Source of the DNA: Scleroderma bovista | Taxonomy: Eukaryota; Basidiomycota; Agaricomycetes; Boletales; Sclerodermataceae | Direction of reading: 5' to 3' | Length of the DNA stretch: 64,000 nucleotides | Assembly: GCA_037178675.1 (NCBI GenBank) | Contig: JAYMGJ010000473.1 | Coordinates: 124,001-188,000, forward strand | Shown here: positions 24,537-63,651 of the stretch, in pieces | Layout: the number at the start of each line of letters is the position of its first letter | How positions within the stretch are numbered: the first letter of the stretch is position 1 | Notes under the pieces: generated by a model | Told to the model about the DNA's origin: nothing | Database searches by the model: none | What the model saw: the letters and a program-made list of their open reading frames with translations, nothing else | Program-made: the position numbers and the translations under genes

Positions 24537-27130
24537 TGATTGTGCATCGTGCTCTGACGTTTTCCTGTCCAGAATCCCCAGTTCCACGTCCAGAATCCCG
24601 CAGAATTCTCCTTACGATCGAGTATGTCCTCCGATCCTTCCTATATACTACTCTTTCAAGCGTTCGTCATAGACAACATTCATAGGTGGCTTTCTCTCAT
24701 TTCTATAAGAAATTCTCGCGAGCGGCGGTGAAATCCACCTTGTCATCTACAGCAGTGACCATCGTCACTCCACCCTTTATCACTAAGCCATCCTTTACTC
24801 GTTTACCGTATGAGTCAATGATCATACCCACTTGCTCGTATGTCCCTGTCACCCGTGCAGCGGACGAAAGACGTATGTCAAGAAACACCCAAATGACATC
24901 AGAAAGTTCCCAGTAGAAAAGTGAGCACTTTTCACTCAGACACACTTATCGATGGTCTTCGAAGGACAGGGTGCTAAGCATCTATTAGTTTCGAAACGGA
25001 TTACAATACCGAGGAAGTCTGTATACTGTCAGTGGCCCTAACCCTCTATCCGTGCAGTTCTGTCCTCAATGCATCTCTAGACATCTCCGAAAACTTTTGT
25101 CGCATTAGACTCGCCAACTTGCAATTGATTTGGCGTAGCAGGGGAGCAACTGTTGAGGTTGAAAAGGCAAGGAACAGGCTGAGGTTCCTCCTTCCTCCAC
25201 TAACTCTGTCACCACTCCTGCTATGCCTGCGCTGCCGCCGCCGCAACCCATATCTATGTCTGGCTTTCCAACGAGAGCACCCCTACCCAGCCTCGTATAC
25301 CCCTCGCTACACTATTCCACACTGGGAATCCATGCCCCCCACCACCGATCGTTGCAACTGCACAAGGGCTCTCTGCTTCCCGCACAACAAGAAGCCTTGG
25401 ATCACATGAGTGTGCTTTTCAACGTGATCCATGACCACGCACAGGACAAACGTAGCTGCTTGAGAGTGTGCTCATTTGGTTGTACATTGAGAGCGCCGTC
25501 GATGTCATAGATGGAGGTGTTGGATCCCCCCAATGACGTGCGACACCTTAACGACAATGACGAAAGCCGGAGCACAACATCTCCCCATGACACAACCACC
25601 ATAGTGAGACAATGACCATGGCCAATGCCACCATGGCATGGCAATAACAACAGGAAGGTAACCACGGAACATTAACAACACAGTGAAACAAGGGTCTTGT
25701 TGGCCGTACGTGGAAATGCTACATTGATCTTTGATTTGTACAGTACAGTGGAAATAATCATGCATCGGAATCATGTGGTGGGGAAAGGAATCCAACTGGT
25801 ATGGCGAATGGGAGTACAAATTCAATACCAATAAACAGGGGAAATAATGTAAAATGGGAGATGAATGGTGCGTATGGCCGCACAAATGGAAATAAAAGGT
25901 TCGATGTGGGGTTCAGGGTTTATGGAATGGACTGCAATGTTTCCGTGTAAGTCAGGTGCATACAAGCAGAAATACGACGAACCTTGTCTGCCAACGTCGT
26001 GTCTACAGTCGAGTTTGCCTCCATAGAGCTCTTTCTCTTTGTCTAGCGAGCACACGACATAGAAAGGCGTAGAAACCATCAGCACCGTGTGCAAGATCGG
26101 CATGTACTTTGCAGTGTGCATATGGCTCATGTCGCGGGGTAGAGGTCTGTGCGGCCTGAGGTGCACCTGGTGCCAATGTGCTGCGCGTAGTGTACAAGAT
26201 AAGATAGTCATTCCATGCAGTCGATGCAAAAACAAAACGTACCGACTCGTAATAGGATTCGCGCGACCATGCGCGTGTATGAAACTGGTACTGACAGTTC
26301 CTCTGGCTCATCGGTGAAGACTGACAGAGCACTGTCTGTAGGATCGTTGACGACGAGAGTTGGAATGGGCTGGGCAGGGGGAGGTGCGGGGACTTCTTCA
26401 GGTACAGCGGTGCTGGAGTAGGACCGCGAGTTGACTCTGTACATTCAGCAGAGATGACCTCTCCGGAAAGCAGGGAGGACGGCCCTTTCGGGAGAGCAGG
26501 TGCGGGTTCAAGAGATAAGGCTGCAGCCTCGCAAATGGGCGATTCAGGAATAGGGCTGGGCGTCCATACAGCGGGTTGAGCTGGGATCTATAGTTTGATG
26601 AGGGATGAACTAGAGTCCTTGCACTCGGGTGTGGGTGGATAAAAAGAGCCTGTGGTGGACGCGGTATCGGAGTCGGGGGGCGGGGAAGTTGCTGAGCCTG
26701 CGCAGTCAGGTAGAACTGGGGATACTGAATGCAGTCGAGGAGCGTTGCATCACCGTCCCGACGGGTGAGCGAAAGGTCGACTTTTTCACGGGAGTAGTGG
26801 CCATGGCTGAAGGGATGGAATAGATAATTACATCACCAAATTTGCCCAAACCATATATACGAATATATCATAATATCGCACCTATCGACAGTGTAGATAG
26901 TATCGCCTAAGACCCCTGTACATAGATGAATATGGAAAAACGATTTTGACGATCGACACCACATGGAGACGATATGACGCGGTCGGTTGTGGTCACTGCG
27001 TAGGTGTACTGGCGATCCAGTGCTGTTTGATCTCTCATTGGACTAGATATATCAGACGATATTCTATAGGGTTTGTTGTAAAGGCGTTAGGGTTCGTTCA
27101 GCGTTCGCCTAGAAAACAGACCACCATTTC
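24537..27130. other. Region with open segments but no resolved gene
   Basis: Protein-like open segments occur on the minus strand around 24,945-24,703 (G-T-Y-E-Q-V-G-M-I-I-D-S-Y-G-K-R), 26,810-26,440 (Ser/Pro-rich, beginning near G-H-Y-S-R-E-K-V-D-L-S-L) and 26,440-25,860 (including M-P-I-L-H-T-V-L-M-V-S-T-P-F-Y-V-V-C). The last two may be exons of one minus-strand gene ending near 25,860. I could not connect them with consistent splicing or name a family. Confidence 0.25.
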
Positions 27131-27634
27131 CACGCAGAATTGTACTGTGTCAATTCTGCGCATATTAGCCTGTGTATATCTGTGTGTGAAATAAATGTTT
27201 ATAGACCATTTTGTAAACATTTGTACATAAACATTGTGATGAAATGAGTGTATCGAACAAGTACAATACTATTTTAACACCTGCATCGCATACAAATGTC
27301 AACTGCCAAAATAATGTGTGGTATTGATTTGATACACAAATATGCGCAGAAATGCATTGTATCAATTGTGCGTGAAACAAACATATCGCTCCAAAACACA
27401 TGTATTGTTGTATATGCCATCACATAAATTATAGAATTTGGCATGATATTATTAGGTGTCTTTTTCATAGCACAAACTGCGCAGAAATGCATGGTGTCAT
27501 TTTTGCGCGAAATCATATGCTTCATGCCAGACAAATGTGGAAATGTTGTCCAGTCAAAATAACACATCAAACAAATACATTTTATACGTTACATACATCC
27601 GTCCTACGCAGAATTACATGCATTGTTTTCTGCG
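27131..27634. repeat. Palindrome cluster 1 (four copies), upstream of gene A
   Basis: Copies of the ~33-bp imperfect palindrome lie at about 27,131-27,162, 27,342-27,373, 27,478-27,510 and 27,604-27,634. The first has perfect 10-bp arms, CGCAGAATTG and CAATTCTGCG, around an 8-nt loop. The other three keep the CGCAGAA left arm but have weaker right arms. All lie in AT-rich DNA 300-800 bp upstream of the ParB-like gene start. Confidence 0.75.
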
Positions 27635-27936
27635 GGATGTAAGCACATATCTATTTTTAGTTTACTATTGATGGCATCATGTGTTAATAATAACGATGTT
27701 ATATATAACCTAGCAATGAGAGTAGCTAGAATATCTATGCAATATTATTGACCACTACTTTATAGATGATAGATAATATACATCATTGATATGACGCCAA
27801 TAATCACAGCTGAATCCGAGTTGAATCACCGCTATGTTGTGTTGTATTTATTCCAACTAAACATTCCGACATATATAAAACCAGATCGGGCATTCAAACC
27901 GCCTCACATCTTGCAACCATCTAACTCACAGGATCG

Positions 27937-30900
27937 ATGCCTCCAAAGGATAAAACCAAGGCTTCAGACGGCAGGGTAGACAAGGGGAAGAAGGGAAAGG
28001 GAAAGGCAGCGGAAGTTGGGGAGAAGGTGAGTCATACGATCATCGCATGATGATAATTTACTGACGATCATGTGCGATCAACGATCTATAGAAACAAAAG
28101 ATTAAGGACACCTTGCTGAGTGCCCCAGCCAAGACAGCCAAGCAGCACGATGCCTTGGATGAGAAGTCAAAGAAGGACAAGGCCGCGTTGAAGGCGTTGA
28201 TCGGATACGCTTGTTTGGACATTCTTGAACACGCCGATCGACTCAAGTTCGGAGAATATAACCCACGTCGCGTCGACAACGTTCAAGTACAAAAACTGCT
28301 CGAATCGTTTTACATCAACGAGGTAGATCGGTATCTGCCCGACCATCTAATCCATCTCTTCATTGCCAGAAAACTCCTTGTGGGGCAATGTTGGTCGGAT
28401 GATAAGTATGCAGGGGAGAAATTGCCGAAGGTGGAGATCGTGAGCAGTGCACCTGCGGATTGGTGCTTCATCGCAGCAGGTGGTCAGCATCGACTCGAGG
28501 CCCTCAAACTTTGGATCGTGAAGATCCAGAAGCTACTCAATGACAAGCAACAGGAAGAGAAGAAGATCTTGAACCAGGAAGTGGACGACGAGACGAAAGA
28601 TGAAACACTGTTATATTTGACGAACGTACTTCAACCGCAAATCGACCACCTCAAGGCGAAGGTGACGGCAAACGGGAATTGGATCATAGCTCTCTACAAC
28701 AAAGGTGTGTTATTCATTCTATTCATTTCATAACACCTCTTTCCGTCTATCCGATCATTGTGGCTACGATATCATGCGGGATACAGTGGATTATATTGTC
28801 TAAGTTGCGCATATCCAAGGTATGTCATTTCTGCGTGATTTTAATCATATGTCCATATTGATTGCCATTTTACACCTCATCGGACACCAACCATATCAAA
28901 CAAATTGTCCATGTCTGGACAAACGCATCGTATGTCACGCAAAATTAAAGTATATCCATTCTGCGTGATATTCACAACTTATACGAGGTAACGTGTTGTT
29001 TCATGTGTTCATGTAGTATCGATAAATGACCATATCCATTCAAACAGACCCAAGAGACCTAAGAGACCCACATCCAGCATCATGTTATTCATCGTATGTG
29101 TGTTTCATTGTTCACCGACACCGACACCTGTTGACAATACATATCACGCAGATTGAAATGCGATCAGTTTCGCGTGAAACTTGGACATCATTCATCGATA
29201 TTCGTTGTACACCCCGCATGATATAATCTTCCGATTCAAGCATACCCATTCCTATGTCAATCAAATGTTTATATCAAGCTTAAACTAACATCACACAGAC
29301 AAGGTCGATACCTCCGTCTGTATCCATCTCTCACAAAACGAAACGAAATGGGTTTATATGGAGACGCCAATGGAAGGACTTGTCATCAGGCAATGGGCAA
29401 TGAAGTCGGGGAACATCGATTGGGCCACAATATCCACGTCCTCTGAAATTCGAGGCATATCAGCCAAGCAACATGAAATGTTACGCCAGGATTATGGTTG
29501 GAATCTGGTCAGCGTCATGGATGCATCAAAGGACATCTTTTGGCAGGACAAACGAATCAACTCGCTCAATCAATTGCATGCACTCATATTCTCCCCAGAG
29601 GGAGGCGTGCGTCACGGTTCATCTCATCGTCACCACATAACACTGATTCCGTTGCAGTTGATCGCATATATCGCTCATATCCTCGAGGATCGATTCAAGT
29701 TATGTTTCAATAACGTTAAATTGGACGATAAGGACATAAGGCATCTCATGCAACAGGTCAAGAGAGACGAGCCAGAAGCGATCAAAGAACTCGAGAGGAT
29801 CTACGAATCCTTGAACGATGCCACATGCGTTACCGATGCTATGACATTGAAGATTCGCGAGGCTATCGAGGAGGCCTTCGTAACCACTATCGCCGAAACG
29901 AGTGCAACCAACTACCTGGGCAACATGTCTGACATTGCGTGGGTGATGGCATACAAAGAATATGTGTCGACTATCACGAGGATGATCGAGGACATCGTGT
30001 CTGGTATGAGGGCCGATGGATCTATCGACAACATTCCTGAAGACGTCTCCATCGCCCTCACAACCTGTCATCTCAAGATCAAAGTCGTCGTCGCCCATCT
30101 CGTCGACAAATACCACAACTTCCCTTTCTTTTGCCCCTCGTTCCTGGTTTCTCTACGTGACCATTACTCCAAGATTTCATGTGCGATTCTCGAAGTGCGT
30201 CCATCTATTTTCCTTGTCCATTTTTACGCGGAAGTGTAGTACTACGTTTCTGCGCGATACATGGCATCCTAAACTAAAGATATCGTACACAGTACTCTGC
30301 ATGGTGGACACCGTTCATCTACTCGACGAAACTCTTTCCAAAGGACTGGAATCCTGGATCTCCAAGCGCAGACATGATCCGTGCCATTCTCGCACATCCA
30401 TCGTTTGACATGGACGAACGCAACGAAGTCCTTGATCAAGTTAGTCCCTTCATACCATCATTTTCGATATGCAGTTCGTCCTGATTCAATCTTCAGATCG
30501 TGCAATTGACATTCGATCACTATGCTGCCTTCATCAATTTGGAGGCGCAACTCACCTCTGCATCAATTCCCTCGCGCCCAACAACTCAGTCCGACTTGTT
30601 CAAAATATTCGATTTCCCTGCCACGTCTTCATCCAAAAAATCAAGACCAGCTGTCGAGGAGGTTGTGGAAGATGAAGACACCGAACTTGACGAAGAGGAC
30701 AATGGTGCCATGGATGGAGACGACGATGACGACGAGAATTCTAAGGATTCAGAGTGGGGGAAGAACGATGATATCGCTCCGATCGAGGGTGAGACCCGCG
30801 AGGAGCGTACGAAGCGCCGTACTTCTCACAAGGATGCTGCTACTCTGCGTTCCGACCGCCTCAAAGCAGAGAGTTCGGAAGCTGTCACCATTCTTAGCAG

Positions 30901-32864
30901 CAGTCGCAAGCTCCCCAAGTCCAGTCCGGTCCCATTATATCAACCATGGTCTCGCAGGCATGCCATTGCCTCACATGCCCCGAAGGACGCTTTCCGCGGA
31001 ATCAATCTCATCCGCTACCACACTTGGCATTGGGCCGCCACCAGCCCCAACTCTTGGGTTCGCAGTTCGTGCATTCTCGCCGGCAGTGCTATCGTCGAGC
31101 ACTGTGTCATCATGGACTATCGCCATAAGCTGATCGGCGATACCAATGGCGGTCTCTGTTTCCTTAGAAACAAAATAGAGGCCGTCACTGAACCTTATCG
31201 CGTTGTTATCAAGAAAGGTCCTCGCCAAACGACATTATTCTCAAAGAAGCCTGCTGCCGCTGCAACCAGCATTCCTTCGTCAAGCATTCCCATTCCCCTC
31301 GAATGGGCAGATCAGCTCGTCGCACCCCCGAGCACCATCGAGGACTTTGACCTTGACGATGAGGTGGCCAACCATGGCCGTGAAGTCACTCAATCTCGCC
31401 AACGCAAACAGCTTCAACGTGCCATCACCATGCTCGAAGGTATTCCAATTTTCTGGCAAGATACCACTGGTTCTGCCACCAAGGCGGACAGGCCTTCCAT
31501 CAATCCTCAAATCCAATCTGTTTTCGAGAAACTGGTAAAGGTATGCTTTCATATTTCATCTCCCACATCATGCGTTTATTTCTCTTGTCATAGTATGGAA
31601 ACATCAATGCCTACGTGCAACGCCTTGGATCACGCGCATGCGATATCGATCTCTCCGTTGCGGAGTCCGATGGCGAGCGCCTCGACGTTGAATACCGGGG
31701 CACGTCCGATCTCCCCTCTTTGAAGAAGAGCGTTGTGTCACAGAGGTTCGTTATTTTATCTGCCCAGGAGGAGAAAGAGTTGTTGGCTGGAGTCGACGAA
31801 GAGGATGCGAATGTTGTACAACAGAGTGAGTTCTATTCAATCAGCTATTCGATTAGCACCACTCACTACAAAAGATCCTATAGCAGGCAGGGGTCACAGC
31901 AGTCCTCCAGAACAAGCAACACCATCCTCACCTCTGGTCGACGAAGACCATGCCCAACACACGACATTCGAAGACCATTTCCATCCCTCATCCCAACAAC
32001 ACGAAAGCAACGACGACCTGGATCAAACTCAACCTATCTCCACACAAGGTATGTTATCTATCCCTCCATTTTCACGCGATTTCCAAGGGTATCGATTCTG
32101 CGCATTTTTCATTGACAAAATATTGCCACGATCGTCAACTGTCATCCACCAAAATCCATGTTGATTTGCGCAGAATCGATATTGAGTAAATTCGCGTGAT
32201 ATTGGTATATTTTATTTACATTTACTGTGCTCATCCATCGTATTCTTCTAGAGGATCCTCCGTCCACACCTTGTTTGTGTCTTTTTCACAACGATCTGTC
32301 AATCAAACTGATTTGATTTCATACAAGCGATCGTCCATCAATTGCTTCCCAAGGAAATTGCTTGGAAGCAACAAGGTTCCGTTTCTCTCATTCCAATCTC
32401 TGAATTCAATCTATTGACAACATCCAAGGTGATCAGAACGATAAACAAGAATCCTACAGCATCAAGACTCGTTCTGCATCTTCAAGGCCCCGTCGCCAGC
32501 CCTCTCCCATTTGCCCTGGTAAGTCCATCCATTCAACTCTATTTTAAATACACCACATCGATCATAGTCACAGGCCAGCCTTCGAACATGATCCGTCCAT
32601 CTATCAACTCGTCCAACAATCCATCCGATGCAAAGCGACGTCTGTCGTCCAATTCGCAGCATGCACAACAAGAATCGAACAAACAGCCTGTCTCTCCACG
32701 CCGTATGTCTCAATCATGTGCCAATGTTTCACCACTCACCCGCCTTCTCTTCCACAATAGAAAAAAGGCCTGTCAAGCGTCCAAAGACATGGGTGGGTGA
32801 GAAGAGTGCAGTGGCTGCGAACAAGATGGCCGTGGATGATGATCATTCTCAATTTGTTGCTTGA
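27937..32864 (+). CDS. Gene A: large protein with a ParB/sulfiredoxin-like N-terminal domain
   Basis: Ten exons (27937-28026, 28092-28704, 29299-30194, 30293-30439, 30497-31540, 31594-31825, 31884-32048, 32429-32518, 32574-32702, 32761-32864) total 3,510 nt, exactly 1,169 codons plus stop. After a Lys-rich start, residues 84-104 read F-G-E-Y-N-P-R-R-V-D and L-L-E-S-F-Y, and residues 158-168 read A-A-G-G-Q-H-R-L-E-A-L. These are the two hallmark motifs of ParB/Srx-fold domains (N-P-R-x2-D and G-x-H-R-x2-A), and N-W-I-I-A-L-Y-N-K with a later H-L-S-Q-N-E fits the rest of the fold. The next 700 residues are globular and unknown; residues ~600-660 are acidic (D/E runs), and the C-terminus is Ser/Pro-rich and basic. 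Several introns are unusually long (594, 380, 98 nt) and contain palindrome copies. Gene B follows on the same strand. Whether the domain binds DNA, hydrolyses nucleotide or acts as a nuclease cannot be told from sequence. Confidence 0.65.
28804..29177. repeat. Palindrome cluster 2 (three copies) inside intron 2 of gene A
   Basis: Copies lie at about 28,804-28,836 (left arm decayed), 28,935-28,969 (arms TCACGCAAAAT / ATTCTGCGTGA) and 29,144-29,177. They fall within the 594-nt intron 28,705-29,298, far longer than the usual ~55 nt introns of this window. Confidence 0.75.
30226..30257. repeat. Palindrome copy inside intron 3 of gene A
   Basis: A copy with left arm ACGCGGAA and right arm TTTCTGCGCGA lies in the 98-nt intron 30,195-30,292. 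Without it the intron would be of normal size. Confidence 0.65.
32070..32199. repeat. Palindrome cluster 3 (two copies) inside intron 7 of gene A
   Basis: Copies at about 32,070-32,104 and 32,166-32,199 lie within the 380-nt intron 32,049-32,428. The first starts TTCACGCG and ends ATTCTGCGCA; the second starts TTTGCGCAGAAT and ends ATTCGCGTGAT, so its two halves are partly exchanged in detail. Confidence 0.7.
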
Positions 32865-33073
32865 ATTCAGTCATACAGTACATGTTGCCCCGTATCAAAT
32901 GCAACATACGAATCAAATACGTACATCATGGTGTCGTTACATTGCTATGCATTTGCCATAGTATACATAACAATGAACAAACAATATCGTCCGATTGTTT
33001 CATGTTCCTGGAATGAGTCCACTTGTATTCAGATTCGTCCGTCCAATGTTTTCTAACACGAGCCACACATTTG

Positions 33074-33386
33074 TCACGCGGAATCACATCATCTTCATTT
33101 CGCATGTAATAGACGGGTCCATCTCCTACGCACAATCGATGCATGTCTGTTTTGCGTGACATCGCCTTGTTCGACGTAGATCAGGCCATTCCAAGCAGTA
33201 TTTCACGCAGAAGCATTTGTGTTTGATTCTGCGTCGTATACACCACTGTTGTTCAGACATGCATCCATTCCACACGCGTTTCTTTGACTTCGACATGTCC
33301 ACTTTGCATGCTATTCGTACCCCAATACTTGTATCTTTTAACACACCTTCTTCACGCTGAATCACACCCATTGATCATTGCGCGAC
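33074..33386. repeat. Palindrome cluster 4 (four copies) between genes A and B
   Basis: Copies at about 33,074-33,106, 33,126-33,159, 33,202-33,236 and 33,351-33,386 follow the stop of gene A by 210-520 bp. The third has perfect 8-bp arms ACGCAGAA / TTCTGCGT. Confidence 0.7.
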
Positions 33387-33539
33387 AGACTTGGTGTAGA
33401 AGAACATCGTCTCGTCGTCGCATGATTCGTCAGACATCCACTCCAAGAATGAAATTAAATGAAATAGACTCTCAACAATATAATGTCGAATTCCGCTCGT
33501 CAGCTATGTCCAGCTGCTGTCTGATACCCTAACGCTACT

Positions 33540-34420
33540 CGAACGTACGCCAACCCCTGCCTATTCCGCAACCCATCGTTTCTAACAAAACACCACACTT
33601 CTTCACTACTCTTCAACAGGCACACACCTCCCATACATGAAATAGAATAGATACATAGAATCTTGTTGATCCATCACTGTCAGCTCACCCGCTATCTTTA
33701 CACAAGTAATAATACCCACAACCATATCTCAACATTTCCTTACCCCGTGCACATCTCCCTTCCGCACAACTCACCATCGCATCCTCTCCAATCACAATGA
33801 TGTCCTTTCTCCATCCTACTCCTTTCCTTCTCACTCTCATCCATCATAATATCACTTGTCGTTGCGTGATCCAATTTCTCCCCTCCCGCATTCAATTCCC
33901 TTCCAACAACATCCATCGCTTCTCCCTTTCTGCTCGTGTCACAACAATGGATACGCGTCTCCTTCGTTTTCGTGTGTGTCGCTCGTTTCCTCTTTTCACT
34001 CACAACATAATCCATCTTTGCTCGTTGTATCTCTGTCTCCAGCATCAAAATTTCTTTCTCTCAAACTGCAATTACGTTCCTCACGTAATCTCCAGCAATC
34101 ATGCTCTCCTCCTCTGAACAAACCACGTCCCATCTCCCAATCCATCGGTCCGTTATTTATCCATGTAAGCCTTCTAAATATCCAACCCGCCTTCGCCTCT
34201 ACCGTTCCGTCACAATCTAACTTTCGTAATTCACTCCCCGCCAATTCAATCCTCTTTCTTCCGTCGTCCCTGTCCCATCTTACTGGTCCCCGACTACGCC
34301 GACCCTCCCTAACTTAAACGTTCGCCTATGTTTTTCCACCTCCGCTCTCTTTTATAAATCTCTCCTCCTCTGTCCCTCCTCTCCCTTCCATTCCTCCCTT
34401 AATATCTCCCCATCCAAATC
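33540..34420 (+). promoter_or_regulatory. Pyrimidine-rich upstream region of gene B
   Basis: About 880 bp immediately upstream of the gene B start are strongly C/T-rich on the coding strand (repeated CTCTC, TTCCC, CCATC). TATAAA occurs at about 34,352-34,357, some 65 bp before the ATG. Pyrimidine-rich tracts are common in fungal promoters, so this is probably the gene B promoter. No gene is evident in it. Confidence 0.4.
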
Positions 34421-35560
34421 ATGTCTCGTTCACGTTCCGATTCAGATTTCAGTTCCCCTCATGCGTACGTTCACCTGTTCATCCTGTCGTCCCAAAAACA
34501 TCCATGCCATTCTTTTCATAGGCACCCTCTTCGTCTTCCCATAGACGATGCTCACTTCCATGAGGACCACGGCGTCATCTCTGGCACTGACGTTGACGAT
34601 CTCAACGATCCTCTCAACCCATCTGACCCTATTGACCACGACGCTACACGTGTCGACGAAGAGAGCAACGATAGTCCTTTCGACGTCGCAGACATCCCAC
34701 AGCAGCTATTGGCCAACGATGCCCACGACCAAACAGACGTTCACGTCGCCCTCTATCAAAACAACCCCTCTCGCAAGCATGACCACCTCGCAAAGTTTAA
34801 CGCTTCCCAACCAAAGTCCATTTCTCTCAGCAGGTTGATCAACCTCTCCACTCAATCTCATGTCCGATCCGCTGTCAATCTCCTCACCACTCGCCATCGT
34901 CTCTCCGTCGACGACCGCTATATCGTCAATGTCAACGACCCGGACGTCATTCCTTGCGTCGGCCCACATTATCTTGATTATACTCTCTACGTCGGCGCTC
35001 GTCGTGGCCTCGATGCCACTCTTCCAAGCATAGAAATCCAACACAATTGGTCCTGCAAACTTACGTTCGGAATGACGCATCGACTCTGGCCTGACAAGAA
35101 CAGCGACGCACTGCCCTTTCATCCACAAGGTCGAATGATGTACATCGGCACTAGACTCGACGATCAGCTCTGGATCGCCATGGTCCCTAGGCAATTCTTT
35201 CTCAAAGACAATCCAGACCGTGCTCGCCATCGTCTTCCCGTCCTGGATGCACCCACCACTGCATTGGCGACTCGTCATCGGCTCATGATGATCATGTTCT
35301 TCGCCCACGTCTTTACATCCATGCGACTTGCCGACATCCATTGCTTCGAAAGTTATCCTGACCCTCTGACGTATGCATCCGTCAAGGAATCTACAGAAAT
35401 CCTGTGAGTGTTCGTTTCCATCGTCTTACGTCTGGCAACGACCACCTGGCATCGTAGTGGCATTTGTGCCAGATGCTGACTTGCCATACACTTACTCTCT
35501 GGCAAGACGCGTCGCCATCCGAGTCGTGCCTCCCATATCATCGTCCATCAGACGTGTCGT

Positions 35561-35595
35561 TTTCGCGCAGAAACAGACACCTCCATTTTCGCGCA
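35561..35595. repeat. Palindrome copy inside intron 2 of gene B
   Basis: A copy with arms CGCGCAGAAA / TTTTCGCGCA lies in the 226-nt intron 35,404-35,629. The intron also contains a shorter 54-nt intron-like segment at its start and an open stretch, but using that stretch as an exon breaks the frame. Confidence 0.6.
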
Positions 35596-37380
35596 TTTTC
35601 TGTCTTCATATTGACCATCCCCTTCGCAGAGGCCGCATGGGTGAAGCGCAATGTTCCTTCACCATGAGATTGCAAGACGTACAGCAAGTCCATCATGGCC
35701 TACGTGTCCTCTGGAGGGACTGGGTCAGGGCTGCTCCCAGATCCTGGAAGTCCGACGATTTCCTCCTCAACAATTCCCCCATCGGTATCTCCATGCGATA
35801 CGGTCAAAACCAGCGCATCATGATGCCTGGTCATGTCGATGTCGAGAGACTCAACTGGAGTCACGATCGCGATTTACAGTACATACATCAATTTACCTTT
35901 GCCCTCGCCACTCACATCAGGTGTGTATTTCTTTCATCGCATTGATCCGGACATCGACCATCGTCGCACAGTGCTCTTACCGTCGACGAGTGGGATGACA
36001 TCGATGCTGGTGACATGGAGCATCGTCATGGGGATCTTTACGACCGCACCAACAACGACGATGCTCGACAACAGGTCGATCTCGACGATCTCCCTCTACT
36101 CGACGACGACGGTTTCGAAATAAACGTCTATGATGTAGGTGGCTATCGAGTTCCCAGACGCCTCCCCTCCCAGTCGACCAAGTGTGGTGCTCTTCTCAAC
36201 CTCGAGCGCGTTCACGAACTCTTTGAAGAACAGGACGATGATGGCGACGACATGCCCACCGATCCCACCTTTTTCATATACCCCATCGCCTACACTCGCA
36301 ACCTTGGAAATCTCAAATCCCCCTCCATCATCGTGCCCTTCCAGCACATGTTACGCGAAGTAGATCTCGACCTTTGACCCGACCTCGTGCACGAAAACAT
36401 GGACGTGGACGAGGACGATGACGATGTCCCACATCGGTACGGTTCCCCTGTGCTCCATGGTCAAGGTTGTCAGATATACAACACCATCTCCCACCGTGTG
36501 CGCACGGAACCCAGGTTCCACTTCGTCCAGCTTGGCATGGTCACCACCGCACTGGCTGGTTCTTCCACGAAATCGACTGCTCGCGAGCGTCATTGGACCA
36601 GACGCGTCAAATTCTGTGATCAGGCCCTTCCTCACAAACGCTTTGCAGAAAAGGTGTCTGGCAATCACCAGCCACAGGATCTGCGGTTCGAAAACACCTA
36701 CACCCTCGACGTTTTTCGAATGAATCCCGACCAGCGGAACGGATCGTAAGTTCGTCCTTCCATACTACCGCGCTCCTCGGGTTGATTCGTCGATCATGTC
36801 ACAACAGTTTCATTTATGACAATGTAATATGCCGGCTGCTCAAGGCTTGGACCCATCCGCGCGTTTTAGGTCCCATCAAAGATGTCATGGTATTCCTAGA
36901 ACCGAACGTAAGTCCTTGATTGTCGCATGGGTCTGACTCATCGAATGTCCTGCACGCAGGTCATACCGAATTTACTTCAATCTGCCACATATCCGATCAC
37001 GGCGATGCTGGACATATTCTGGAACAAGTATGTTCCGTTCATAAAGAAAGGGAAGATGGTGGATCACTGCACCATCGAAACGGTGTCCATGCTCGAGCGT
37101 GCTCTCAACTACGGTCACACGGGAAACGCCGCCGTCCTTCCACGCAGCATTATGGATCGATCGTGGCTCTCGTTGGGCCTCCTGAACGATGGCTTCCCTT
37201 GCTTGTCGGATGCATTCATCGCCCACGGCTCCATGTCGATCGGCAACATGGTCGTTCGGAACGATGCTTGGCCCATCGATCATAAGAGCCGTCGCCCTCT
37301 AACGTCCACGAAGAGAGCACTCGAGCTGACGTACGGGCACGAGTATTATCAGGTATGTGCCGTTCTTGAAACACACCGCT

Positions 37381-37558
37381 TTTCACGCAGAATGTTTTGC
37401 TTCTCATTCTGCGCGAGAACGGCCCCATTTTCGTACTGTGTGAAGGACAAACCGATCTTTCTCGTCTTCTTTGCCGACCGTCTTACACGGGAAGCATCTC
37501 TTCTACATAGGAGGTCCCCAAAACGCGCAGAATCACAACCACCCGATTTTGCGTGACA
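37381..37558. repeat. Palindrome cluster 5 (two copies) inside intron 6 of gene B
   Basis: Copies at 37,381-37,417 (perfect 9-bp arms CGCAGAATG / CATTCTGCG, 10-nt loop) and 37,523-37,558 (CGCGCAGAATC / GATTTTGCGTGA) lie in the 277-nt intron 37,353-37,629. Confidence 0.75.
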
Positions 37559-39309
37559 GAGACTTCCATCCATCATTCTATCTGACTTGTTTTTTCTTTC
37601 CGTGTCTGACACCGTTACCGCTTCTCCAGATGTACGAGGCTTCGTTTACCATCAACCTTGCCATCAACAATCCCCCGGAAGACCTTCTCGCCTCCTCTGA
37701 GGATCGCATCGCCAGCGTTGCTCGCTATGCTGCCGAGGTAGCACTCAAAGTCTATTTTGACGATGTCAGGACGCTCGTCCACACGAACGTTGCTTCCCAG
37801 CTCACGCCTTTACTCACCGACGACGACAGGGGCGTCAGGACACGGGCACACGATCGACTCATGGCACTATCTCGATGGGAGGACGAAGACCTGCCATTGT
37901 CATCCAATGCCAGCATCGTCGTCAATCTACTTCGTGCCCTCGTAGATCCAGAGACCCAAGCATACGAGATGCCTTACGCCAAGGTCGGGAGCAAGCCGCT
38001 ATCATTCTTTGCAGATGCCATCGTACAACAGTGCACCTCCACCAAACGATTGCGTAAACCACCGTTCATTCGGGGTGGTAACTTTCTCGCCGTCGCACGC
38101 ATCGCCGTCAAAGAAATACTCTCCCTCCCAGGTCTCTCCAACATGAAATCCCCCGATGCAAACATTTTCGCCAGGGATGCGCTCATTGCTGCATGTCGTT
38201 CCCTCAAGATCAACCATATCCCGTGGATTCGTGACCATGATGGTCGTCATGGTCGTCCTACCATAACCATTTGTCACGACGTTTGGCTCAATCTTGGTGC
38301 CACCGACAAACCCCCCTCCATGGTCGTTCCATCGTTCCTGTCCAGACAACAATCAGCCTCCTCTGCAGCCTTTCGTGCTTCAGAGAAGATTCAGTCCAGC
38401 GATCCACGTGGCGACTAGTCTGCCATCAGTGTTCGTCTCGTGAAGTTCCACACCGTCCTCCACAAAACATCGCTTCCCACTGAATGGAACATTCGTCACC
38501 TCGGATTCAAGTCTCTTCCACAAGAGGTGATGGACGGTTATACTGAAGTCAAAGACAACTTCGTCTGCACAAATCCTCTCGAGCAGCTTTCTGTCATGTA
38601 TGCCATCATCGCGTGTGGACTCTTGCCCAACATATATGCACCTTCCAAGATCGAACATACCGACAACAGAGAATTATGGCCTGAGATCATGTACAATCTT
38701 CAATGGGTTTCACGCCCAAAGAAACGTGGCTCGACACGACCAGAACCCTTCATTACCATGGTCATCGGTTTCATCATGACCATGTTCAATCCTGACAATG
38801 CCTTGTGGGGAAAAGATGGCAAGTCGAAAGTGACCGTGGAATGGATCAAGAAACATTGTGAGCGTTCACCCAATCTAACATTTCAAACCTTGCACCTCAC
38901 CATCCGTCGCTCGACGTATGCAGCCAACAAGGGCATCACGGCCTTACTGTTATGCCGTTTCGGACTTGCCACCATCGAAACCGGCTGTGGCTTCCGCTCT
39001 GCACAATGGCGCACCGACATTTGTCCGATATCTGACCAGGCCATTAAGGAAAAACATGCGGAGGCCGTACGGCTGTTGAGAACGAGCGAAAAGTATGGTG
39101 GGTATGATGTCGTCCGTTTCCTTGTAGGTCCTCAGGCAGCAGAAATGTTGGCCAAGAAGAACTATGTCACGGCTCGCCGTCTCCCCATGGACGTTGCCTC
39201 GGCAAGTACATCGTCTCGTCGCAGACATGACGATGAGGACGATGACGAGGACCGTTTCATTTCCTGTGGCTCTATCAGTAAATCTTTCAAGATGCGACGG
39301 ACGAAATAA

Positions 39310-40060
39310 GGTCACCATATCCGTTATGTACCACCGAATAGATTCGAACGTATGAGCAATGCACCATATAGATGTGCTCGACAGCCGTTGAAGTATGCCA
39401 TAGAGTCACTGTGTGAAATACCATATTTCGCATATTTTGATTGGACCCATGTGCATTTGTTGTCCGTGACACCACATACCTAACACTAAGTCGTCCTTCA
39501 ATGGCGGTCCCGTGCTCAGAGACACTACCACGAATAGATCCGAAACAACGATGTCACTCATACATCCGGTACAACCAGTGTGTTCAAAATTGCGCATAAA
39601 TCCATGGGGTGCTTAGGGTTAGGGGGGATGTACACCACACAGGGTAGTGCCAACGGGTAGCCAGGTTTACTGGGTGATGAGAAAAGACGATGGAGGAAGG
39701 GGTCTTTAGGATAAATCCCGAAGACTGGCTCTTTCGACTTGTAGTCTCATCAGCCTCTTTCGTCTCTTTATATATTGCATGGACAGGGATTTGGAGCGGA
39801 GTCCGAATCACAAGCGTTGATAAGAGTGACTTATCCCATTGGTTACCGTTGGTTTGGTACTACTAGACTGGCAAGCGTCTCCAATGCGAGAACCATGTAG
39901 TGGGGGCAGAGCGGCACTACACTCAGCCGATTGTGACCCGATTGTCAGGTGAACCAACTTCCCGGCGATGTACTTAGGGTTATGAGACTATCTAGGTCAG
40001 ACTGAAACCCTAATTTAGGGTTTATTCCATATCTGATGCTCAGGCTAGGGCACCTTCCAT
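39310..40060. other. Spacer between gene B and the minisatellite
   Basis: No gene is supported. A short palindromic AACCCTAATTTAGGGTTT occurs near 40,006-40,023; it resembles a telomere-like hexamer in inverted arrangement but is a single instance. Confidence 0.35.
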
Positions 40061-40076
40061 GATGTTACAATTGTAG

Positions 40077-41050
40077 AATGTGGCCTTCCAGGAAGGCCAC
40101 ATGTACACAGGTGTAGCAATAGCATCTGATTTGGATGTTGGATGTGATGCTAGCCATGAGTATGGCCTTCCAGGAAGGCCACATGCACAGAGGTGTAGCA
40201 ATAGAATCTTCTTTGTATGTTGGACATGCTGCTTACCATGAGTGTGGCCTTCCAGGAAGGCCACATGCACAGAGGTGTAGCAATAGAATCTTCTTTGTAT
40301 GTTGGACATGCTGCTTACCATGAGTGTGGCCTTCCAGGAAGGCCACATGCACACAGGTGTAGCAATAGCATTTGGCTTAGATGTTGGATGTGATGCTAAC
40401 CATGAGTATGGCCTTCCAGGAAGGCCAGATGCACAAAGGTGTAGCAATAGCATCTGATTTGTATGTTGTATGTACTGCTTACCATGAGTGTGGCCTTCCA
40501 GGAAGGCCACATGTACATAGGTGTAGCAATAGCATCTGATTTGTATGTTGTATGTACTGCTTACCATGAGTGTGGCCTTCCAGGAAGGCCACATGCACAG
40601 AGGTGTAGCAATAGAATCTTCTTTGTATGTTGGACATGCTGCTTACCATGAGTGTGGCCTTCCAGGAAGGCCACATGCACAGAGGTGTAGCAATAGCATT
40701 TGGCTTAGATGTTGGATGTGATGCTAACCATGAGTATGGCCTTCCAGGAAGGCCACATGCACAGATGTGTAGCAATAGCATTTGGCTTGGATGTTGGATG
40801 TGATGCTTACCATGAGTGTGGCCTTCCTGGAAGGCCACATGCACAAAGGTGTAGCAATAGCATTTGGCTTGGATGTTGGATGTGATGCTAACCCTGAGTA
40901 TGGCCTTCCAGGAAGGCCAGATGCACAAAGGTGTAGCAATAGCATCTTATTTGTATGTTGTATGTACTGCTTACCATGAGTGTGGCCTTCCAGACAAGCC
41001 ACATGCACAGACGTGTAGCAATAGCATTTGGCTTGGATGTTGGATGTGCT
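40077..41050. repeat. Minisatellite: 12 units with an exact 82-bp period
   Basis: GGCCTTCC recurs at 40082, 40164, 40246, 40328, 40410, 40492, 40574, 40656, 40738, 40820, 40902 and 40984, i.e. every 82 bp with no length change. Each unit has the 19-bp palindrome TGGCCTTCCAGGAAGGCCA (centre T in unit 10, right arm eroded in unit 12), then CATGCACAxAGGTGTAGCAATAG and one of three variant tails (GAATCTTCTTTG..., CATTTGGCTT..., CATCTGATTTG...). Because 82 is not a multiple of 3 and the unit lacks stops on the minus strand, long but meaningless open frames appear across it. Confidence 0.95.
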
Positions 41051-50160: not shown

Positions 50161-51376
50161 GAGAAAAGAACAAAGGCAAATCTTAAGATTGCGTCCTTAA
50201 ATATGAGAGGGAGGTACCACGATGGAATGGAAAAATGGTTCCATATCAATCAGATGATGCGAGATGAAAAAATTGCAATCCTAGCGCTCCAAGAAACCCA
50301 CTTGGACCCTACTCAAGCTGCTGACATCAATAACATGTTTCCCGATACTTTACACATCGTAGCATCTATAGACCCAGCCAATCACACCTCCAGAGGTGTC
50401 GCTCTAGCTATCAATAAAAGGTTACTCGGAGTGCAAGACATCTCTCATTACAAACTACCTCCCGGTAGGGCGTTACTAATATCTACACCTTGGCACCTAC
50501 AAGAGAAAATTAACATACTTAATGTCTATGCCCCAAATGACCCCAGAGAGAGCACCCTCCTCTGGGAACAGATACATGATGATCTTCTAAACCTCCCCCA
50601 GCCAGATGTTATTCTAGGTGACTTCAACTTTGTTGAGGACCCACTAGATCGACTACCAGCACACTGCGACAACCCAAATACAGTAGAAGCCTGGAAAGCT
50701 CTAAAGTCACATTTATCCTTAATAGATGGCTGGCGAACATCCCTCCCCAAAACCCTTAACTATACTTTCGCCCAATCTGCTAGGCAAGGAGGGCACCAGT
50801 CTAGACTAGATCAAATATATGTCCATGGAGATATGCTACCACACTGTAAGGAATGGATTATATCCCCACCTCTGGTTCCCACAGACCACCAAATGGTCTC
50901 AGTCAGAGTATCCAAACAGAACATGCCCTTCCTTGGCAAAGGAAGATGGACCCTAAACCCTTCACTGCTGCGTGACAAAGAAATAATAACTAACATCAGC
51001 GCTGAACTACAACTCCTACAGGAGTCTCTCGAGAACTGCAGCCTCAATCGCACAAATGAAAACAACCCGCAAACAGCCTTTAAAGCTTTCAAGGACAGAG
51101 CCATCACAATTGTGAGGAACAGAGCCAAAAAGGTCATTCCGATGACCAGACAAAAGATCAACAAACTACAAGAAAGACTACAGGTAGTCCTAAATGATAC
51201 CACAATCCCAGATGATGACCGGCTCCTCCTGAGCGCTGACCTAAGAGAACAAATAAACACAATGAGACAAGCCCTCCATGACTCTGTCCATGACCGCACC
51301 CATCTTAAAATGAGAGTCAAGTGTGAATCTCCCACCAGTCATCTCTGGGCCCAGTCTGGAAGAGAAAGGAAACTGC
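50161..51376 (+). pseudogene. LINE ORF2, endonuclease part
   Basis: The frame contains the AP-endonuclease motif series of non-LTR elements: I-A-S-L-N-M-R-G, I-L-A-L-Q-E-T-H-L (catalytic Glu), R-G-V-A-L-A-I-N, I-L-N-V-Y-A-P-N-D, V-I-L-G-D-F-N-F (Asp, Asn), S-R-L-D-Q-I-Y and T-D-H-Q-M-V-S-V (Asp-His). A coiled-coil linker follows. The coding sequence is cut at 51,376 by the second solo-LTR-like element and resumes at 53,447. Confidence 0.85.
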
Positions 51377-53446
51377 TGTGAGTCAAAGTGTGGATTTGGG
51401 TCAGAACAACAACCCAAACACAACACCAACAAAGGACTACAAAAATGTGCGAGTGGTGGTTTACCTCTGCGGTGTCCAGAGAGGATATGCTGAGGAGGAG
51501 GGAAGGGGATCTACACCAACAGGGTGATGCAGACAATGATGCAGGATACTCCTGGGGTACAGGAGCAATAGAAGACGAAGGGGATAGGTGTCTGGACTCT
51601 TCCTAAAGCCTAGGAAGTGTCAAAGCGGGGATTGAGTTGACTAGGACTGAAGTAGTGATACTACACCTAGAGATTGGTGCAGCAAGGGGACAAGGGGGCT
51701 CCTGATGTTCAGAAGCAATGGGAGATGAAGGATTGACTGGCTAGACTCCGCTTGAGCCTAGGGAAAGACTTGGACTTGAATAGATTGGATAAAAACTTGA
51801 ATATCAGAGTCTTTAGACCTTCACTGAAGCCTACAAGACTCAAAGTACTGAGGGGATAGTGACTGAGAGGGACTGAGAGAGGGATAATTTCGTGCTATTG
51901 GGCTCTCTTCCACTGGGCTGAGCCCAGGGGTTTAAATACATGGGGGGGCACAGCATTAAAGTACAAAAAGAGAAGGGAGTAAGCAGAATTTGTCAAGGAT
52001 TGGTAAGGGATTGGTAAGAGCTTTGTAAGGGGTTTGTAAGCAATCAGTAAGCAAGGCATAAGCATGAATGAGTAAGCATAGGGAGCATGAATAAGCTGCT
52101 GAGTAAAGGAATGAGTAAGCTGCATGACAAGATTGATTGGTAAGGGAGTGAGTCATCAGCTGAGTAATATACCAAAAATGCGAAAGGGATAGAGTAATAC
52201 TGATGACAAGAGAGCATCAGTAAGCAAGGGATGAGTCACTGCACAGCAGAAGGGAGTCATTGATGCACAGCCTAAGAAGTTTGATGGGACAACAATGGGG
52301 AAGATCTGGGATTAATAGGGGGATTGATCCAAGACAGAACAGCCACAAGAAGGGTACCAGGGGTCCAGAGGTCTTTGGGGGGTCAGCATACACTAAGGTG
52401 TAATGCATGTGTTCTAGCGCTGCTGTAGTGCAACCATGGGCTCCCTTGACAAGCTCTCTTCTGGGAAAGAACGAGAGAGGGTTCTTCTTCCTAATAGCAC
52501 TCTAAAGTGGGGGTATAACTGTCATGGTGCTGGGGGACGCCGTCTGAAAGCAGGGAAGCGGATAGAGTACTGAATTTGACGCATCTGGGAAAGCGAGACA
52601 AACGACAGAGGAAGATGGACATGGCAAGTATCTGGAAGGAAGGGACCATAGGCTGAGGGCTCAGGGGACACAGAGACGACCAGAGAAGACTTCTCAAGCT
52701 TGACAATAGACCTAAGATGACCAAAGTACGTCCTTGATGCAGGACTGACGAGGAGAACATGCTGACCGAGAACGAGGGGGACTGAGGGAGCAGGCTGGGA
52801 AGATATGTGCCAGGCAGTGCACAGGAACTCAGGGAGAGGCTGTCCTAAGAGTAGGACATAGTGGAGATCTGCAGCAATAGCGGAGAAATGATCCAGAGAA
52901 AATACGGACTCCATAGTGAGCGATGAGACGAGCATCTGGATCGCGGGGGGAATATCTCCGTGGGAAATGAACGGATTTACATCGGAACTTGACAGGCAGA
53001 TAGACCACGCTCTAGGCTCTCTGATGGTATAATCACGTGCCTGATAGCTTCAGAAACGGTGGAGCTATTCAAAATATCGGAATGCCGGCACTGGGCGCCT
53101 AAAAATGACATTTCAGCGCTAAAATTGTTTCTTCTCTTCTTTTCTTCGTTTCTCCTTCAATTCTTCAGCTTCTTTGCTCGTTCTGGTATGGGAGTTGGAC
53201 TGCAATAGTGTGCATTCCTTTCTCATACCATAATAGACATTATTCCTTCAGTTTCTTCTGCTTCTTGGCGGTTCTTGTGCGAGTGATGACTGTCAGCATT
53301 GGCAATCACCTCTTGCATCAGGATAATCTTCTTGTGTGATAGATGGCTACGATGAGGGTCCGTTGTGCTTATCCTTCGCATAAGGATCATTTGATATAGA
53401 CGTTATCTTCCATGTTCACCGTACCAAACCTGTTTGGTGCGTGACA
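51377..53446 (-). mobile_element. Solo-LTR-like element, copy 2, inserted in LINE ORF2
   Basis: This is the reverse complement of copy 1, running TGTGAGTC...GCGTGACA on the plus strand. Flanks are CTGC on the left and CCGC on the right, a 4-bp target duplication with one change. It splits ORF2 between the endonuclease linker and the reverse transcriptase. It is about 180 bp longer than copy 1; part of that is a 46-bp insertion at 53,184-53,229. Confidence 0.7.
53184..53229. repeat. 46-bp insertion with terminal inverted repeats in LTR copy 2
   Basis: Relative to copy 1 this segment is extra. It begins TGGTATGGGA and ends TCTCATACC, so its ends are inverted repeats of about 9-10 bp. Removing it restores the copy 1 sequence across the junction. 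Polarity could equally be a deletion in copy 1. Confidence 0.55.
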
Positions 53447-56400: not shown

Positions 56401-57064
56401 GAAATCCATCAGGAGCAGGGATATCCCAAAAAACATCAGGAACTTCCTGTGGAAGTGCCTGCACAACTCATATAAAATTGGTTCATACTGGAGGAACATA
56501 CCGAATTACGAAGACCGAGGCACGTGTCAATTGTGCGGAGAAACCAAATCTATGCAACACATCCTGGTCGATTGTGACCCCTCCATCATTCGACAAACGG
56601 TGTGGGAGCTAGCGAGCGAGCTATGGCACAAAAGAGAAGACACATGGCCAGACGTTTCATTCAGATCGATCCTGGGTGCGAACCTTCCAAACTCCGCCAA
56701 CATCAAGAATGCCAGGAAAAAGGGCCGCAATAGACTCTTCACTATACTCGTATTAGAATCTGCTCATCTGATATGGAAGCTTAGATGCACCTGGATAATA
56801 GACAACGAAGGTGACTTGACTAAACTCCCAACCAGAGAAGAAGTCCATAATAAATGGGTCAAGAGTATCAACATGAGACTTAAATTCGATAAACTACAAA
56901 TGGACACAAAGAAGTATGGCAGCCGAGCCATTAAGTCCGACCTAGTGCTCAAAACCTGGAGCGGTGTTCTGCTAAATGAAGAAAATCTCCCAGGCAACTG
57001 GATCTGGGAGTCAGGGGTTTTAGTGGGTATTACACCACGCCAGCCTCTGGGCCATGGGAGATAA
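53447..57064 (+). pseudogene. LINE ORF2, reverse transcriptase to zinc-motif part, with frame breaks
   Basis: Reverse transcriptase motifs appear in order: L-P-N-G-K-A-A-G-L-D-G, N-Y-R-P-I-M-L-L-N-S-D-Y-K, N-Q-A-G-F-I-P-G-R, V-A-L-D-Q-E-K-A-Y-D, T-R-G-V-R-Q-G-D-P-L-S-C, and the catalytic F-A-D-D-T-T-V-Y. An RNase H-like region (about 55,750-55,990) follows, but the expected D-G-S, Glu and T-D-S residues are not evident. A TGA at 55988-55990 ends the frame, and coding resumes in another frame to 57064 with a C-x2-C-x7-H-x4-C zinc motif (C-Q-L-C-G-E-T-K-S-M-Q-H-I-L-V-D-C) and W-x-L-R-C-x-W. Confidence 0.85.
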
Positions 57065-57263
57065 TCCCGAGCGCGGTGTGGAGTGCATGACGGTGTGCAT
57101 AAAAGCATTTTCCCCTGGGTAGTAATCATGGGTTTATGTTATGATCTCTCTCTATGCTCTATGTCTATATCTCTGGGTGAAAGCCCCAAAACCTGCGTGC
57201 CTCTAAGGGGCTGATTTGATCAGTTGCCTTTTAAGCAAATACACCTTCCAAAAAAAAAAAAAA

Positions 57264-57280
57264 ATTCTTTACTGTAAATG
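57264..57280. repeat. 3' target-site duplication of the LINE
   Basis: ATTCTTTACTGTAAATG directly follows the A-tail and matches the copy at 45,462-45,478 except for one base. Confidence 0.85.
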
Positions 57281-57516
57281 CTGATCCTTGATACACCTGT
57301 GCACTCTTGGGTAACATTGCAGGAGCTTTTGAAGCACAGTGTGTGGCAGACCACTCTACAGGAGGTACCACAACTTTTCTCCCATTTTCATTGGTTCCTG
57401 TCTGAGGTTTTCCACATGCTTACAGCCGTTTGCAAAAACCTTGACAGTGACGCGTGATGTGTAGACTAGTTAGGAAATAAAAATAATGTGCCACATTGGC
57501 CTGCTGCTACCTCTAC

Positions 57517-59146: not shown

Positions 59147-59227
59147 GATATCATTCAAAACTGTAACACTAGTACACACATTCATTCAGAATACATATGG
59201 ATGGTAACGAGATTGTATGCAACGAGA

Positions 59228-63200: not shown

Positions 63201-63651
63201 AAAAGAATAAATATGACTTGCCTGGTAGGTCTATCCCAAAATCTTCTGAGTCCTCCAAATCACTTTCAGCCTCCTTCCCTTCATCCCTAATGTCCTCATT
63301 GACAGAAGCAAGACATGGCTCAAACAGCCTCTCACCCCTCTGCATAGCTTCCTGGAGGTCATCAAAGATGTCACCATACCCATGTGATATTTCATATGTA
63401 CAATCACCTCCAATACTCTTCCATAACTCTGAAAGGGCTAGCAGCTCGTCTTTTTCCTCAGCATAGGGTGCAGGTACAGTAGGATCATCAGAGACAGCAA
63501 GATCAGGGACAGCAGGATCAACAGGAGGACTGGGAGAACCCATAGACTGATCTCCTTCATCAATAGACATACCTTCTTGCCTGGGTTCAGGAATATGATA
63601 AGAAGGCAAGGTACCTTGAGGGAATGGATCCAGCTCCGAAATTCTTGTCAT

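Follow-up and report, generated by a model that had tools for sequence, protein, structure and literature searches.

The window, a 64,000-nt stretch of Scleroderma bovista DNA (contig JAYMGJ010000473.1, positions 124,001-188,000, forward strand), contains 17 palindromic sites of 34 bp with the form TCACGCAGAAT-n12-ATTCTGCGTGA, which lie at positions 27130-37556 in the modelled non-coding DNA of a two-gene unit that is repeated and probably mobile. On balance we think it probable that these palindromes are operators of a dimeric protein, likely encoded by the element itself, that would serve self-specific activation or anti-silencing. Altered palindromes at matching places in some distant relatives point to a self-marking element, whose sites would be recognised by a protein that is probably its own product.

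Each palindrome carries two half-sites of approximately YRCGCRRAAT in inverted orientation, with a CGC core that is almost invariant across the window sites and surrounding positions that are graded. The spacers differ from site to site among the 17 and are constant in length, measuring 12 bp in 17/17 rather than the 8-16 nt of the original prediction. The centres of the two 7-bp cores are 21 bp apart, or about two helical turns, and a homodimer could therefore bind both half-sites from one face. To search for sites we derived a symmetric matrix from the 17 palindromes and scanned the window at spacer 12. At >=10 bits this recovered the same 17 sites and none besides in 64 kb, as compared to 0.3 matches per 64 kb of shuffled sequence. 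Thus the copies listed in the original prediction all exist (some starts were off by 1-2 bases), they stand well clear of shuffled sequence, and they are absent elsewhere in the 64 kb, as had been claimed. Leave-one-out scores of the 17 ranged from 14.2 to 34.0 bits, while the best-scoring remainder reached 8.3 bits (overlapping the site at 27130) and then 6.5. At >=8 bits there were 18 matches at spacer 12 and 0-10 at other spacers, the highest of which (spacers 10 and 14) we regard as largely out-of-register hits on these palindromes. Simple pattern matching with spacers of 8-16 gave 14 placements at <=5 mismatches over both arms, against a mean of 0.53 in 30 Markov shuffles (maximum 3), and only a slight excess at <=8 mismatches (148 placements against 110 in shuffles). 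The window motif also emerged, at 10 places, from a de novo search for 7-mer dyads; motif-free palindrome counting was too blunt to be informative.

Table 1. Features of the two-gene unit and its palindromes, in window coordinates.
Feature	Position	Strand	Location or basis
Two-gene unit	27061..39471	+	limits set by copy breakpoints
Gene 1	27937..32864	+	ten modelled exons; splicing checks, family alignment
Gene 1 exon 2	28092..28704	+	splicing check, family alignment
Gene 1 exon 3	29299..30194	+	splicing check
Gene 2	34421..39309	+	frames, family comparison, splicing check
Palindrome 1	27130..27163	.	upstream of gene 1; matrix scan
Palindrome 2	27342..27375	.	upstream of gene 1; matrix scan
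Palindrome 3	27477..27510	.	upstream of gene 1; matrix scan; retained in C452
Palindrome 4	27604..27637	.	upstream of gene 1; matrix scan; retained in C452
Palindrome 5	28805..28838	.	gene 1 intron 2; matrix scan and copy comparison
Palindrome 6	28935..28968	.	gene 1 intron 2; matrix scan and copy comparison
Palindrome 7	29144..29177	.	gene 1 intron 2; matrix scan and copy comparison
Palindrome 8	30224..30257	.	gene 1 intron 3; variant in equivalent intron of C463
Palindrome 9	32072..32105	.	gene 1 intron 7; matrix scan and copy comparison
Palindrome 10	32166..32199	.	gene 1 intron 7; matrix scan and copy comparison
Palindrome 11	33074..33107	.	intergenic; matrix scan and copy comparison
Palindrome 12	33126..33159	.	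intergenic; matrix scan and copy comparison
Palindrome 13	33203..33236	.	intergenic; weakest in C452, 13.3 bits
Palindrome 14	33352..33385	.	intergenic; weakest of the 17, leave-one-out 14.2 bits
Palindrome 15	35563..35596	.	gene 2 intron; variant in equivalent intron of C798
Palindrome 16	37383..37416	.	gene 2 intron; matrix scan and copy comparison
Palindrome 17	37523..37556	.	gene 2 intron; matrix scan and copy comparison

Eight of the 17 palindromes lie outside the gene models, ahead of gene 1 or in the intergenic stretch, and nine within modelled introns, so that, as originally proposed, none (0/17) falls in an exon of the gene model. Since 35% of 27061-39471 was non-coding by hand annotation (a splice check later lengthened some introns slightly), the placement of all 17 in non-coding DNA would occur by chance with a probability of about 2e-8. 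Sites 35563, 37383 and 37523 also fall within open frames, and their intron status thus depends on splice signals and distant paralogues. The modelled introns that bear copies are indeed longer (98, 226, 277, 279 and 594 nt) than the ten other modelled introns (51-80 nt). If the acceptor at 32578 is used, the modelled gene 1 product is 1,201 residues long, whereas nearer acceptors give 1,131-1,133; its N-terminal start is rich in lysine. Gene 2 shares 35-61% identity, piece by piece, with two distant paralogues; the window copy has two in-frame stops, and its frames end at 36377 and 38418. When pieces of both genes were searched against Pfam and NCBIfam profiles, nothing matched significantly. 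For the protein of gene 1 exon 2, neither Pfam, NCBIfam and PHROGs nor the PDB returned anything at E<=10, and no ParB domain was detected. Among the scanned gene pieces there was no significant Pfam match to transposase families (including MULE) or a VANC-related protein, nor any match to the KDZ transposase (PF18758). The predicted folds were both poor (mean pLDDT 41.8 and 55.4), and a PDB fold search with the weak gene 2 model returned no match at E<=0.001. Therefore, a DNA-binding domain was not found in the gene products.

The left edge of the unit coincides with the breakpoint of one copy (C140), sharp at 27061, and the right edge is the point at which the C487 fragment breaks off; the unit itself may extend further to the right. 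Elsewhere in the genome we found one near-identical copy, one of 83.5% and one fragment of 88%. In the 51.8-Mb assembly all 10 places that matched a strict pattern (<=3 mismatches) were within four unit copies, as were 23 of the 27 that matched a looser one; a reversed-pattern control gave 0 genome-wide matches, strict and looser alike. The original prediction of confinement to one two-gene locus therefore holds for the unit, to whose copies this half-site is restricted, but not for a single locus. Variant half-sites occur more widely. The genome also contains at least 166 KDZ matches (150 of 317 candidates scored), and none of those listed is in C472. A link between the sites and KDZ elements was considered and rejected, the nearest listed match being about 5.5 kb from a listed variant site (C590) when compared by eye.

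Among the close copies, one (C452) covers 13 sites and the C487 fragment 3, all of which score 13.3-31.3 bits with the matrix. Half-site core positions were conserved between copies at 148/160 as compared to 144/192 for the spacer (p 1.4e-5). Of the core CpGs 24/31 survived, but only 68/183 of those elsewhere in the non-coding DNA (p 4.9e-5). Outer arm positions (152/191) were conserved no better than other non-coding DNA (2862/3551). Palindromes appear at matching places in close relatives and in some distant ones.

The distant paralogues share roughly 30-60% protein identity by exon, and in some of them palindromes with changed half-sites, still spaced by 12, occupy corresponding positions. 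These variants surfaced in spacing-based searches; a de novo 7-mer dyad search in the distant loci revealed nothing like the window motif. For example, gene 1 of C487 has four upstream variant palindromes, with a site array at 84-85-bp steps, and one in the intron equivalent to that of palindrome 5. The same intron in C1 holds a weakly supported variant, a single site within controls (1 against an other-spacer mean of 0.17, maximum 1, and 0.4 in shuffles). Similarly, C463 has one variant in the gene 1 intron equivalent to that of palindrome 8 and a second match in coding sequence. In C798 a variant lies in the gene 2 intron that corresponds to that of palindrome 15, and the site count for C798 was within controls (2 against a mean of 0.67, maximum 2). 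The spacing-based search detected no 12-spaced variants in C587, C606, C32 or the C1 gene 2 locus. The variant half-site keeps approximately TYRYGCA but has TATC, AATC, CATC or similar in place of GAAT as its four inner bases, as would be expected if the binding protein and its sites had diverged together; the case for a difference between subfamilies is strongest for C487 and C463. At 34 of 38 places with variant half-sites neither gene 1 nor gene 2 was detected and, among the sites listed, 12 are clustered at C263:54326-60698, again with neither gene detected.

The original prediction offered three readings, a tiny palindromic mobile repeat, RNA hairpins and protein-binding sites, and as judged from sequence the last of these fits best. 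A mobile repeat inserting into introns would account for many dispersed copies that are all in non-coding DNA, but strict copies are absent outside the unit copies in the genome and from the rest of the window, spacers differ between sites, and positions are common to relatives, which together leave this explanation scarcely credible. A role as hairpins, in splicing or in the making of small RNAs, is suggested by inverted arms that are able to pair and by the nine sites in modelled introns. However, arm pairing (78.1% against 78.8% in shuffled arms) and covariation (0.163 against 0.184) are no better than in shuffled arms, the spacer length is constant in all 17, and the eight upstream or intergenic sites lie outside the genes' introns; two arms without covariation make RNA hairpins very unlikely.

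If a protein does bind, it might be a host factor with specificity for the element family (an activator, a repressor or a protein of genome defence), or it might organise element DNA for movement or maintenance, in a transpososome-like or ParB/parS partition-like manner, rather than affect expression. The anatomy of the sites is silent on which part of the genome encodes the binder, and variant half-sites where neither gene 1 nor gene 2 is detected would suit a host factor, yet sites at host genes would then be expected and the strict motif is only in unit copies. Moreover, the half-site varies among subfamilies of one genome, and escape from a host repressor should erase sites whose cores are in fact conserved, so we regard a host factor as improbable. 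We give about as little weight to a role in movement or maintenance. Paired half-sites at fixed spacing over 10 kb are consistent with it, as is a GGQH motif in gene 1 exon 2 that is invariant across seven aligned sequences and that we take to resemble the ParB/sulfiredoxin motif, but a ParB or transposase family match is absent, the sites are internal rather than terminal so far as the ends are known, and no terminal inverted repeats were found at the candidate ends of the unit.

Operators of an element-encoded dimer thus remain our preferred reading. We infer that a homodimeric protein would bind the two independent half-sites of each 34-bp operator, and that it would most probably be a product of the element itself, with gene 1 as the leading candidate to encode it. 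Such a protein would occupy sites upstream, in the long introns and in the intergenic spacer, marking the element's own chromatin and most likely keeping the element transcribed or unsilenced. The outcome would be activation or anti-silencing, by analogy with VANC proteins, which act in this way on VANDAL elements by binding their motif and removing methylation. The unusually long introns would then be explained as holders of operator sites. As subfamilies with different half-sites occur in one genome, coevolution of protein and site is directly testable. More speculatively, and with considerable doubt, the unit could represent an undescribed two-gene fungal mobile family in which subfamily-specific dimeric proteins coevolve with matching palindromes in promoter, introns and spacer, non-autonomous derivatives that have kept the sites but lack the genes, the C263 cluster for instance, hitch-hike, and the protein is perhaps a eukaryotic ParB relative that coats the element. 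The portions of the open-access literature covered gave no description of this two-gene element or its palindromes.

Several known systems bear comparison. In bacterial ParB-parS, several palindromic sites are clustered near the gene of a binding protein with a GGQHR-type motif. The window palindromes likewise cluster around a gene whose product may bind them and which carries the GGQH motif, but there is no ParB profile match, the site is different, and the genes are intron-bearing and eukaryotic. Fungal transposons with a TET/JBP dioxygenase are proposed to counter methylation-based silencing (PMC12730594). Those elements use an enzyme gene, whereas no dioxygenase was detected in the fungal unit, the scanned gene pieces having no significant Pfam match. 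The binding sites of TnpA from maize Spm/En are subterminal and 12 bp long. TnpA activates its own element, in correlation with demethylation (PMC10398659). The proposed likeness is an element-encoded protein activating its own element; in contrast, the fungal sites run through introns and the intergenic spacer, and family searches revealed no related protein. VANC motifs of the Arabidopsis VANDAL MULEs (PMC5735166, PMC10398659) are dense in element introns and upstream regions, mainly non-coding and rare in other elements, and related VANDAL families carry different motifs; these are 8-9 bp, non-palindromic by letters and arrayed in a single orientation, having spread through tandem repetition. 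Similarly, the window half-site is concentrated in the unit's own non-coding DNA and rare elsewhere (variants are more widespread), and half-sites differ between related subfamilies here too. The fungal sites differ in being dispersed 34-bp palindromes with fixed spacing, not tandem in the window, and the scanned pieces of the fungal genes have no family match to MULE transposase or VANC. If the binder is element-encoded, the unit would be a fungal counterpart of VANDAL/VANC self-recognition, with palindromes instead of tandem motifs and built from genes without a detected family link. In that case sequence-specific self-marking would appear to have evolved repeatedly among mobile elements.

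Seventeen palindromes of the form TCACGCAGAAT-n12-ATTCTGCGTGA were located between 27130 and 37556 of the window, in and around two genes that form one unit. The original prediction had described this many copies with spacers of 8-16 nt; the number stood, while the spacer proved to be exactly 12 in 17/17 sites. Placements with five or fewer mismatches numbered 14, as compared to a mean of 0.53 in 30 shuffles of the window, and a symmetric matrix built from the 17 sites and scanned over the 64 kb at a cut-off of ≥10 bits recovered exactly these sites (shuffles, 0.3 per 64 kb; leave-one-out scores, 14.2-34.0 bits). The predicted family is therefore real and far above chance. Its predicted confinement held within the 64 kb, where no further site reached 10 bits, but not across the assembly (51.8 Mb, 850 contigs; window on C472). 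There the strict pattern was found at 10 places, all within C472 and three contigs carrying close copies of the unit, C140, C452 and C487; a looser pattern gave 27 places, 23 of them at these four loci and the remaining 4 being single weak matches in C34, C238, C287 and C632. The reversed-pattern control gave 0 in both searches.

Gene models and placement of the 17 palindromes
Feature	Window position or size	Sites	Remark
Gene 1	27937-32864		1,201 residues with one acceptor choice
Gene 2	34421-39309		two in-frame stops in window copy
Upstream of gene 1	300-774 bp upstream	4	
Gene 1 intron 2	594 nt	3	
Gene 1 intron 3	98 nt	1	
Gene 1 intron 7	279 nt	2	
Between gene 1 and gene 2		4	
Gene 2 intron	226 nt	1	
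Other gene 2 intron	277 nt	2	

Introns holding sites are long in the gene model, as predicted, at 98-594 nt versus 51-80 nt for the ten others. Those of gene 2 double as open reading frames in the window, and their assignment as probable introns rests on splice signals and paralogues. For example, similarity to the gene 2 paralogue on C798 ends at 35404 and restarts at 35628, with a GT-AG intron in the gap, and similarity to that on C1 restarts at about 35580, crossing an in-frame stop, in an alignment that overlaps the end of site 35563. Across the second gene 2 stop, the open frame of the C140 copy runs to 621 aa, as compared to 324 in the window.

C140:3706-27896 is an inverted copy of window 27061-51156 (24 kb, 99.5-99.8% identity, all 17 sites included). 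No collinear match between C140 and the window was found outside either break, and the final 3.7 kb of C140 consists of repeats at the contig end; segmental duplication could explain this copy, or in part it could represent the other haplotype. Window 27386-36294 has an 83.5% relative on C452, and C487 carries an 88% fragment of 35438-39471. The left break of the unit is sharp, at 27061, its right end is placed tentatively, since another insertion may have truncated the C487 fragment, and no terminal inverted repeats were found at the candidate ends; mobility of the two-gene unit is therefore likely rather than certain. The C487 fragment breaks at about 48467 and 52468; sequence at its outer break resembles a copia-type polyprotein, so that retrotransposon insertions may delimit this fragment. 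A tandem array of ~82-bp units lies directly right of the two-gene unit (40076-41050) and is present in C140 too. The KDZ transposase family has at least 166 matches in the whole assembly, which together with the intron-bearing genes indicates a fungal, probably basidiomycete, source.

All covered sites were recovered in the diverged copies, 13/13 in C452 (13.3-30.5 bits) and 3/3 in the C487 fragment (22.1-31.3 bits). Counting positions 4, 5, 6, 9 and 10 of the half-site as its core, 148/160 core cells were identical between copies, versus 144/192 spacer cells (p 1.4e-5) and 2862/3551 other non-coding cells (p 4.9e-5); outer arm positions gave 152/191, leaving the cores alone as distinctly conserved. 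CpGs have been lost in relatives of the unit, which hold fewer than the window copy, yet core CpGs were retained in 24/31 cases versus 68/183 for those outside sites (p 4.9e-5). The unit (27061-39471) has a CpG observed/expected ratio of 1.10 and the right flank (51157-64000) one of 0.40; taken with the fewer CpGs in the relatives, this suggests that CpG-directed mutation operates in the S. bovista genome.

Both protein-binding sites and RNA hairpins had been proposed for these palindromes, and the first reading is now strongly favoured. In a functional hairpin a change in one arm is expected to be matched in the other. Here, arm-to-arm pairing was 78.1% of cells versus 78.8% with partners shuffled, and the covariation score was 0.163 versus 0.184, so that arm changes are unmatched and the hairpin reading is unlikely. 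Among the 34 pooled half-sites, positions 5-6 are GC in all, position 4 is C in 33 and position 9 is A in 32, while positions 2, 3, 7 and 8 show chiefly purine or pyrimidine alternatives, a profile that we read as that of a binding site rather than a copied repeat. Independent half-sites at fixed spacing, with cores 21 bp apart, suggest binding by a dimer on one helix face.

Searches with pieces of gene 1 revealed paralogues in C463, C487:70-72 kb, C1:61-63 kb and C587 and fragments in C32 and C606; gene 2 revealed paralogues at C1:30.7 kb and in C798. Over both sets, identity piece by piece is about 29 to 61%. On partial sequence of these 8 loci, YRYGCA-n20-TGCRYR matched once each in C798, C463 and C487 and not in the other five; other spacings average 0-0.2 per locus. 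The C463 match lies inside a 94-nt intron equivalent to that with site 30224, and the C798 match inside the gene 2 intron equivalent to that with site 35563. Gene 1 of C487 is preceded by four palindromes, which follow one another in 84-85 bp steps at 379-633 bp from its start codon, and the intron that follows exon 2 holds a fifth, where the window has three; 3/5 pass a relaxed scan, and the other two, recognized by eye, fit the second variant-site pattern of the genome-wide search. At spacer 12 the relaxed scan gave 3 in C487 (mean at other spacers, 0.08), 2 in C463, one in coding sequence (0.25), 2 in C798 (0.67) and 1 in C1 gene 1 (0.17, with 0.4 in shuffles); C1 gene 2, C587, C606 and C32 gave no hit. 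On these counts the putative variant palindromes are convincing in C487 and C463, the case for C798 rests on position, and that for C1 gene 1 is weak. Distant half-sites retain TYRYGCA or near, ending in TATC, TTTC, AATC or CATC, not GAAT, and are less regular in C798.

A genome-wide search placed the variant half-site at 38 positions (control 4), 34 of them not near any gene 1 or gene 2 match; together with another form it was seen at 54 or more (control 9). Many share one spacer and look like copies of a single repeat. C263:54326-60698 holds 12 variant sites, at least 8 in mirror-image arrangement, with neither gene detectable there. Such places could represent non-autonomous relatives, or else a different element family that relies on the same protein. 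At C1:34826-35240, some 2.5 kb downstream from the distant paralogue of gene 2, lies an array of palindromic units in ~29.5-bp steps.

The binder and its purpose we infer as follows: the palindromes would serve as an array of operators for a dimeric protein that the element itself encodes and that, once bound, would mark the non-coding chromatin of its own element. Neither Pfam nor NCBIfam gave a significant match to the gene pieces scanned, gene 1 exon 2 had none in PDB, and PHROGs gave nothing convincing (best E 0.022). A GGQH motif in the family alignment of gene 1 exon 2 could be read as ParB-like, a reading that failed profile tests. Structure prediction for the element proteins was too weak to inform function.

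The nearest precedent for such self-marking is VANC21, whose motif occurs upstream and within introns of VANDAL21, is uncommon in other elements and is distinct from VANC6-target motifs (PMC5735166; PMC10398659). TnpA of Spm is a second (PMC10398659). Unlike these precedents, the window sites are palindromic, fixed in spacing and without tandem arrangement.
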